From positions 62,001-126,000 of the forward strand of contig NZ_MWLK01000026.1 of NCBI RefSeq assembly GCF_002198715.1: 64,000 nucleotides of DNA, written 5' to 3'. The DNA is from Rhodomicrobium sp. R_RK_3. GTDB taxonomy: Bacteria; Pseudomonadota; Alphaproteobacteria; Rhizobiales; Rhodomicrobiaceae. Below, piece after piece: positions 34,006 to 36,099 of the stretch. The position numbers and the translations under genes are program-made. The notes under the pieces are model-generated. The model ran no database searches, was not told the origin of the DNA, and saw only the letters and a program-made list of their open reading frames with translations. Each line of letters starts with the position of its first letter. Position 1 is the first letter of the stretch.

Positions 34006-36099
34006 TCAATAGGGCGCTTCGATGCGGGCGAGATTGACGTAGACGCTCTTGATCTGGGTGTAGTGCTCGATCGCGGCCCTGGAGTTCTCCCGCCCGAGGC
34101 CCGAGCGCTTGAAGCCGCCGAAGGGCAGCTCGATGGGCGTGACATTGTACTGGTTGATCCAGCAGGTGCCCGCTTCCAGCCGCGCGATGACCCGATGGGC
34201 GCGGGCGAGGTCGCGGGTGAAGACGCCTGCCGCCAGGCCGAAATCGGTGGCATTGGCGCGGCGGATGACTTCCTCCTCGTCGCGGAAGCTGAGCACCGAC
34301 ATGACCGGGCCGAAGATCTCCTCGCGCACGATGCTCATATCGTCGGTGCAGCGGTCGAAGATGGCGGGCGCGACGAAAAAGCCGCGCTCGAGGCCGCCGC
34401 CGGTGACGCGCTCGCCGCCGATCAGCAGCGCCGCGCCTTCGCGCTTGCCCGCCTCGATCGAGCCGAGCACCTTGCGCATATGCGCCTCGGAGATCAGCGC
34501 GCCGACCTGGGTCGCCGGGTCGAGCGGATCGCCGATCTTCATCCGCCTCGTGCGGGCGAGCAGCTTGTCGAGGAAGGCCGCCTTGATCTTGGCATGGACG
34601 AAGACGCGGGTGCCGTTTGAGCAAACCTCACCCGCCGAGTAGAAATTGCCGAGCAGCGCGCCGGACACCGCGTCGTCGATATCGGCGTCCTCGAACACGA
34701 TCAGCGGCGACTTGCCGCCGAGTTCCAGCGTGACGTGCTTGAGCGTGGCGCTGGCATCCGCCATGACCTTGCGGCCGGTGCCCGCCTCGCCGGTCAGCGA
34801 GACCTTGGTGATGCCGGGATGGCGGGTCAGCAAGCGGCCGGTCTCGGCAAAGCCCTGCACGACGGTGAACAGCCCGTCAGGTGCGCCCGCCTCGCGCAGG
34901 ATGGCTTCGAGCCGGGGCGCGGTGAGCGGCGTCAGCTCGGCGGGCTTGAAGATCATCGCATTGCCGCAGGCGAGCGCGGGCGCGGCCTTCCAGCAGGCGA
35001 TTTGCAAAGGGTAGTTCCACGCCCCGATGCCGGCGACCACGCCGAGCGGTTCGCGCCGTGTATAGCCGAAAGCCGATGGGCCGAGGTCGATCTGCTCGCC
35101 GGTCAGCGTGGCGGCGACGGAGGCGAAATAGTCAAAACAATCCGCGCCGGAGAGGACGTCCACCGCAATGGTTTCCTGGATCGGCTTGCCGGTGTCGCGG
35201 CTCTCCAATTGCGCAAGGTCTGCATTGCTCGCGCGCAGGAGGTCGGCGGCGCGGCGGAGGATGCGGGCGCGCTCGGCTCCGGTCAGGGCGGCCCAGCGGG
35301 TCTGCGCGTCCTTGGCGGCGGCGACGGCATCATCGACATCCGCGGCGGTCGAGACCCTGATTTCGGCGAGCACTTCGCCCGTCGCGGGATTGATCGAGGT
35401 GAAGTGCGTCGCGCTCGTCTCGCTCGCGGCATCGGGCCGATCCGCCGCGGACGCTGTGGCCGTTGCCTTCGCGCGCCGCGCGGAAGCTGGCGTCGATGAT
35501 GCGCCTAAGGCCCCAAGCTGCCGGTCGACGAAATCGGTGGCAAAGCGGCGGGCATTGGCGCTTTCCGTCTCGCTTTTGCCCGAAAGCGTCGCGCGCAGCC
35601 ACAGCCCGTCGATGACCGAGGCGACAAGCGTCGCCATGTCCACGGCCTGCTGCGGCGGCAGGAGCTGGCGCAGCGCATGGCTGAGATTGGAGATCATCCG
35701 CCGCTGATAGATCGCCTGCAGCCGCCGGAAGCGCGCCGAGTGGATCACCTGGCCCCAGAAGGCGAGCCAGACCGAGGCGGTGCGGCGCTCGAATTCCTCG
35801 GGCGAGAGATTGGCGTCGATGACCGCCTGGATGCGGGCGCGCGGGTCGCGGACGCTGCTCAGCCGGCGCGCGGCGGAATGGCCAAGGCGGCTCACCATAT
35901 GCCGCAAGGTCGCCTCGAGCAGGCCATCCTTGTCGCCGAAATAATGCGCGACGAGGCCCGGCGACACGCCCGCCCGCCGCGCGATCTCGCCGAGCGTGCA
36001 GGCGCTGAAGCCGACATCGGCCAGCGTCTCGATGGTGGCATCGATGAGCTGCTGCCGCCGCTGATCCTCGGCCCGGGCGAGCGTAACGTCCCGCATCAT
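34006..36099 (-). CDS. betI-betB: BetI-BetB fusion: TetR-type choline-responsive repressor fused to betaine-aldehyde dehydrogenase
   Basis: One uninterrupted 697-residue frame. Residues about 1-195 are a TetR/BetI-type repressor: helix-turn-helix [20 protein letters not shown] (36-55) and the BetI-like [17 protein letters not shown] and [13 protein letters not shown] segments. Residues about 196-232 are a low-complexity Ala/Ser/Thr/Arg linker. Residues 233-697 are an aldehyde dehydrogenase: [30 protein letters not shown], catalytic Glu459 (TLELGGKS) and Cys493 (GEVCSNGTR). I see no ATG and no plausible ribosome-binding site in the linker, so separate translation of BetB is unlikely. The start at 36099 (or ATG 36096) has AAGGAG upstream; the ATG at 36138 does not. 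The ALDH part lacks the usual first 15-20 residues before SINPATGEV. In relatives betI and betB are separate genes. A sequencing error removing a stop cannot be excluded. Confidence 0.9.

Follow-up and report, generated by a model that had tools for sequence, protein, structure and literature searches.

A BetI-type repressor fused to betaine aldehyde dehydrogenase in one open reading frame

Results

A betI-betB fusion gene beside betA and choXWV

The window, a stretch of 64,000 nucleotides from Rhodomicrobium sp. R_RK_3, carries on its minus strand a gene that joins a BetI-type repressor to a betaine aldehyde dehydrogenase (ALDH) half (Table 1). As originally predicted, the frame is open over all 697 codons, confirming that the covalent fusion is real. 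Its entry in the list of open reading frames is longer, beginning at an upstream ATG at 36138; the Shine-Dalgarno sequence AAGGAG instead lies just 5' of the ATG at 36099. In line with the expected complete BetI-type repressor half, this half alone scored 216.7 bits with the BetI equivalog model TIGR03384 (cut-off 201.3; model positions 4–189 of 189) and also passed NF001978 (BetI). The whole protein reached 771.3 with NF009725 (cut-off 593) and cleared TIGR01804 (betaine aldehyde dehydrogenase) narrowly, by 1.1 bits (669.7, cut-off 668.6). The best PDB sequence match of the ALDH half was 3r31, and its catalytic set was present in full (N362, K385, E459 and C493), including the Glu and Cys that the prediction had named. 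A motif search did not find the first-strand motif N-H-I-G-G in the window's ALDH half; the motif is also lost from many gammaproteobacterial MAG fusions and two Ancylobacter fusions, and is kept by many others. Activity of the ALDH half of the window protein is assumed here; the first-strand motif is missing and the window branch is long in the concatenated tree described below. A search of the genome revealed neither another BetI nor a close BetB, the next ALDH being 43% identical and the next TetR match having an E value of 5.5e-6. The AlphaFold model of the window protein had a pTM of 0.64, at which the relative placement of the halves is not reliable, and residues 645–683 were of low confidence.

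Table 1. Features of the fusion locus, with positions counted along the window
Feature	Position	Strand	Basis or remark
betA, choline dehydrogenase	32336..33997	-	TIGR01810 above cut-off; 8 nt after fusion stop
betI-betB fusion gene	34006..36099	-	697 codons plus TGA stop; ATG start at 36099
Betaine aldehyde dehydrogenase domain, residues 229–686	34042..35415	-	Pfam Aldedh, curated models, PDB match
Catalytic Cys493 codon	34621..34623	-	Residue check
Catalytic Glu459 codon	34723..34725	-	Residue check
Linker, residues 200–229, A/S/T/R-rich, predicted disordered	35413..35502	-	AlphaFold pLDDT <50, start-codon scan
TetR_C_6 (BetI-type) ligand/dimer domain, residues 86–195	35515..35844	-	Pfam, TIGR03384
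TetR_N DNA-binding domain, residues 18–63	35911..36048	-	Pfam
Shine-Dalgarno AAGGAG of fusion	36104..36109	-	Read directly from sequence
Operator 1 (putative), perfect palindrome	36148..36167		Minus strand TTGATTGAACCTTCAATCAA; upstream of fusion
Operator-like site 2	36257..36276		3 mismatches to 20-mer, 1 to 14-bp core; nearer choX
choX, choline-binding protein, divergent	36424..37374	+	TIGR03414 above cut-off
choW, choline ABC permease	37548..38390	+	TIGR03416 above cut-off
choV, choline ABC ATPase	38387..39592	+	TIGR03415 above cut-off

Operator-like sites between the fusion and choX

A BetI-type operator had been foreseen beside the fusion, and sequence matching located a candidate near the bet genes, the perfect palindrome at 36148–36167, whose core ATTGAnnnnTCAAT is common to the window and BetI systems; the box of Ruegeria BetI1 is given as ATTGACG-CGTCAAT (PMC12442346). 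A second operator-like site lies 109 bp away; with three mismatches allowed, as it needs, two matches over the window do not exceed chance (45 of 100 shuffles). Allowing at most two mismatches, 59 of 69 fused divergons had at least one operator-like site and 33 of the 69 had at least two, where composition shuffles predicted 4.5 and 0.1, respectively. Fused divergons carry two such sites in about half of cases, and those with a separate betI mostly one. In a wider set, two sites were present in 34 of 72 fused divergons and in 4 of the 33 classed as separate (Fisher 4e-4, kinship ignored), a comparison on which the tendency of fused intergenic regions to be longer bears and in which one two-site locus counted as separate (L143) reaches a contig end and may be fused. 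A perfect core showed the opposite distribution (5 of 72 fused versus 17 of 33 separate; P 7e-7, kinship ignored). The spacing was 109–113 in the five Kaistia rows with two sites, and four separate divergons of the sister clade (L050, L051, L056 and L057) had no site or one weak site. A sigma-70 promoter scan of 36000–36500 gave no match. A terminator-like stem-loop with a T-rich tail (36179–36198, minus strand; 0.3 expected) lies between the two operator-like sites.

Occurrence and origin of the fusion

The original prediction had raised the question whether relatives keep the fusion, and they do: a scan of named records by BetI-half alignment gave 150 loci, and among the best 80 of them the BetI frame continued into ALDH in 75, a ranking by likeness to fused BetI halves and not a frequency among all BetI genes. 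Two of the 75 stop at a contig end within ALDH and three are degraded; the remaining five of the 80 comprise a MAG frameshift (L080), the contig-end locus L143 and three truly separate pairs (L153–L155). Carriers include Ancylobacter, Aureimonas, Kaistia, Azorhizobium, Methylobrevis and gammaproteobacterial MAGs. Order-wide, 127 of 397 genomes had a match of E 1e-150 or better, and 13 of the 127, the window's own included, carried a full-length, unbroken and intact fusion, three more having a degraded ALDH half. Class-wide, 29 of 385 genomes had a BetI match of E 1e-40 or better, and frame length and inspection showed four to be fused (G000, G1071, G525 and G990, the last with an ALDH remnant). 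Phylum-wide, strong matches were found in 107 of 398 genomes and at least five were fused (G000, G082, G525, G660 and G645), the check having covered just those genomes whose loci were retrieved. The fusion is thus a minority among BetI matches in the less biased samples of class and phylum. Outside the degraded cases, the catalytic residues were retained in most of the 83 rows (Asn 79, Lys 80, Glu 80, Cys 77), two of the six Cys misses being contig ends. An assembly or sequencing artefact, for which no point in favour was found, was rejected as practically inconceivable because the identical join recurs across dozens of independent assemblies. Two further loci had looked fused and proved to have separate genes: L020 (G001, of the window's family), where the alignment length had suggested a fusion, and L191, which had aligned as one piece.

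In a tree of concatenated BetI and ALDH sequences (81 fused, 33 separate), a single change of state suffices, on a branch with an SH-aLRT of 92, and none of the 33 separate pairs fell inside the fused clade (the frameshift-split L080 left out). The next relatives of this clade are separate pairs from two families of the same order. The tree excluded duplicates, ALDH halves shorter than 380 aa, the MAG locus L080 with its frameshift-split ALDH and the degenerate L064, L070, L071, L077, L079 and L118, and L196 was not added; a smaller tree of 37 fused (out of 82 fused rows, L071 and L079 included) and 33 separate pairs gave an SH-aLRT of 94. The tree search was quick and some branches are long, so that the tree favours a single origin without proving it. 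Several unfused betI-betB pairs share one frame that is interrupted by a single stop, which makes stop loss an easy route to the fusion. Its probable origin is a single event in which a co-oriented betI-betB pair lost the stop codon of betI.

The linker and a nested betB start

The linker is short, fast-evolving and, by prediction, disordered. Between the FVD that closes BetI and the NPATG motif of ALDH, it spans 26–53 residues (92 rows, duplicates included) and is poorly conserved; its dN/dS was 0.24–0.80 in 10 of 11 intact pairs and 1.09 in the other, with 0.03–0.36 for the halves. The window linker contains no in-frame ATG, as the original prediction had noted, and no GTG or TTG either, and the view that separate BetB synthesis is unlikely therefore stands for the window, which has no internal start. 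It does not extend to a clade of 22 rows formed by Ancylobacter, Methylobrevis, Bosea sp. 117 and allies (98 in the concatenated tree). Of the 83 distinct fusions, an in-frame ATG occurs in the linker of 33, and an ATG, GTG or TTG in that of 68; in this clade, 20 of the 22 rows have an in-frame start 26–28 codons before NPATG (ATG in 16, GTG in 3, TTG in 1), the two rows without it (L138 and L156) having shortened linkers. The position resembles that of separate betB genes in the sister clade, which start about 7–8 residues before NHIGG, as compared with about 9 for the nested starts of Ancylobacter. Intact Kaistia fusions and the window have no ATG, GTG or TTG at this place.

Six to nine nucleotides 5' of the nested start, the glycine codon is GGA in 19 of 20 cases and GGT in one, against a background of 40 GGA among 850 glycine codons in 12 such frames. 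This codon count was used in place of computed Shine-Dalgarno duplex energies, which did not set the nested starts apart from other internal codons; a regular expression for Shine-Dalgarno sequences, which misses CGGA-type cores, matched before the linker ATG in 5 of the 33 ATG-bearing rows. As synonymous codons are equally good for the protein, the GGA excess is most simply read as selection on the RNA, with the reservation that these rows share descent. Fusions of the Ancylobacter–Methylobrevis clade may thus give rise to both a full-length product and free BetB.

Decayed ALDH halves

In three lineages (three Kaistia species, G990 and locus L118), BetI is fused to an ALDH half without an active site. 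In K. granuli (G320), G393 and K. adipata (G370), the active-site residues or the stretches holding them are gone, a 23-residue stretch around the catalytic Glu being missing in G393 and K. adipata. The fusion lies beside choXWV in all three (L066, L064 and L065, respectively) and betA is gone, with no orthologue in these genomes (best matches 41–49% versus 75%); their downstream flank is common, so betA was probably lost once, and their next ALDHs are about 40% identical. In Kaistia defluvii and G382, the fusion is intact and betA is present. K. terrae, too, lacks a betA orthologue, yet its ALDH half is intact, showing that loss of betA alone does not mean decay of ALDH; by reading of translations, sarcosine-oxidase-like genes follow its fusion (L078, after 7062).

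The degraded Kaistia fusions keep stop-free frames of 673–686 codons, so no uncompensated frame-leaving indel has occurred, and 425–435 of these codons belong to the decayed ALDH halves. Among the three, dN/dS of ALDH was 0.37–0.56 (95% bootstrap limits 0.29–0.69), a figure that also covers the time before inactivation, as compared with 0.06 in the intact pair K. terrae/K. defluvii and 0.09–0.15 for the BetI halves of the decayed fusions. The decayed enzyme half is thus strongly relaxed, though probably not neutral. In a neutral simulation, 0.4 substitutions per site produced 6.9 stops (P(none) 0.002), and 0.13 substitutions per site produced 2.8 (P(none) 0.06). A structure search with the model of the degenerate K. 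granuli protein matched BADH structures, which says little on the real fold since the alignment behind the model held intact homologues.

G990 (L196, 568–2070) encodes BetI with a degenerate ALDH remnant in a frame of 501 aa, adjoined by betA and choX, in a genome with no other ALDH above 45% identity. L118 (4929–6674) has a 582-codon frame in which BetI carries a degenerate ALDH tail. These short frames indicate that tails can shrink, and the case for their being needed is tempered accordingly. The L118 fusion, beside which no bet or cho gene was found, is perhaps a re-used regulator; its neighbours, by reading of translations, are aminotransferase-, alanine dehydrogenase- and serine dehydratase-like.

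Discussion

Comparison with known systems

The fusion resembles BetI (TIGR03384; E. coli, Sinorhizobium, Ruegeria) in its domains, model score, place in a bet cluster and operator core, and differs in that the polypeptide continues into BetB, the BetI models being 189 and 197 positions long. It resembles BetB (TIGR01804, NF009725; PDB 3r31, 2wme) in its full ALDH domain and catalytic residues, and differs by its N-terminal repressor and, in the window, by the lack of the first-strand motif. Fusions of a regulator with the enzyme under its control seem rare, PutA being the standard example, and the P5CDH domain of PutA belongs to the ALDH family. Trifunctional PutA, by analogy the nearest functional parallel, likewise combines a catabolic enzyme with DNA binding by an N-terminal domain, through which its own operon is repressed (PMC5293562). 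The two differ in DNA-binding family (RHH versus TetR, unrelated halves), in substrate (proline versus choline) and in the membrane association that forms part of the PutA switch; a PutA-like architecture (RHH, PRODH and P5CDH) was considered for the window protein and dismissed, Pfam finding TetR_N, TetR_C_6 and Aldedh only. A designed PutA chimaera in which a DNA-binding domain was joined to the enzyme is described as having kept catalysis and gained DNA binding (PMC5293562). Our search of the open-licence PMC literature found no published description of a BetI-BetB fusion; passages of PMC7824335 list proX-betIA with betB elsewhere for Afifella and mention no fusion of this type. BetI-BetB would be a second ALDH-bearing case of a repressor-enzyme, with another DNA-binding family and a probable single origin, and its natural variants (intact, with nested start, with dead enzyme) can probe the effect of tethering an enzyme to a repressor.

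Proposed mechanism and alternatives

The one frame, family membership, conservation, single branch and operator sites, all read from the sequences, point to a tethered bifunctional BetI-BetB of single stop-loss origin, in which a choline-sensing repressor and a working ALDH are largely independent, and we consider this reading likely. One gene would yield one polypeptide made of a BetI repressor, a disordered linker and a betaine aldehyde dehydrogenase, the join fixing repressor and enzyme at one to one. We infer repression, release by choline, catalysis and oligomeric state as follows: the BetI half would bind the palindromes between choX and the fusion and keep both divergent units, fusion-betA and choXWV, repressed until choline binds, whereupon the ALDH half would oxidise betaine aldehyde to glycine betaine. 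ALDHs of this type are usually tetramers and TetR proteins are dimers, so that the fusion would probably be a repressor with several DNA-binding heads.

The original prediction had gone further, proposing that occupancy of the ALDH half, its NAD state or its oligomerisation could alter operator binding. The conserved fusion does attach the enzyme to its own repressor and PutA is a precedent for switching between repressor and enzyme (PMC5293562; PMC9132996), so flux sensing is conceivable; what is conserved does not require it, and we hold it to be unlikely, given that BetI already has a choline-binding domain, that the linker is not conserved and that K. granuli, K. adipata and G393 have lost betA and the ALDH active site while their BetI halves still show the dN/dS of 0.09–0.15. 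A tentative, rather improbable alternative is that a higher oligomer driven by ALDH grips two weak operators, catalysis being secondary in some lineages. The commoner paired sites and rarer perfect cores of fused divergons, which are a lead for a multivalent repressor, the spacing in the window and Kaistia, and the degenerate Kaistia ALDH halves that stay in frame with bootstrap upper limits below 0.70 agree with such a clamp. However, the fusions are one clade and the contrast in sites may be one historical change; loss of perfect sites may predate the fusion, the four sister-clade divergons having weak or no sites; the possibly fused L143 is counted among the 33; two sites may simply serve two promoters; and the ALDH remnant of G990 has shortened.

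Inertia may also explain the conservation of the fusion instead of benefit, the stop having been lost harmlessly and never regained, with a join that has no effect. The unconserved linker and the decay of ALDH once it is unneeded are consistent with such a ratchet, but the lack of separate pairs inside the fused clade (0 of 33) and the stop-free decayed halves of three Kaistia, with the simulated probabilities given above, speak against it, and we give it limited credence. That one gene makes two products, the full-length fusion and a free BetB initiated inside the frame at the former start codon of betB, is suggested by the start codon kept in 20 of 22 rows, its upstream GGA codon and its approximate agreement with the starts of separate sister-clade genes; we rate it very unlikely, as the window lacks such a codon, duplex energies fail to separate the nested sites and the 22 rows are related to each other. 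A combined reading, in which an ALDH tetramer clamps paired weak operators, nested-start BetB provides tuning in some lineages and dead ALDH serves in others purely as an oligomeriser within one class of enzyme-repressors, appears doubtful. The bifunctional, largely independent fusion thus remains our preferred reading.

One fusion, a 676-aa coding sequence on a plasmid of the vinegar bacterium Komagataeibacter saccharivorans (L190, 5031–7061), is annotated only as betB, a label that hides its regulator half. The repressor may therefore be missed when regulons of these bacteria are annotated.
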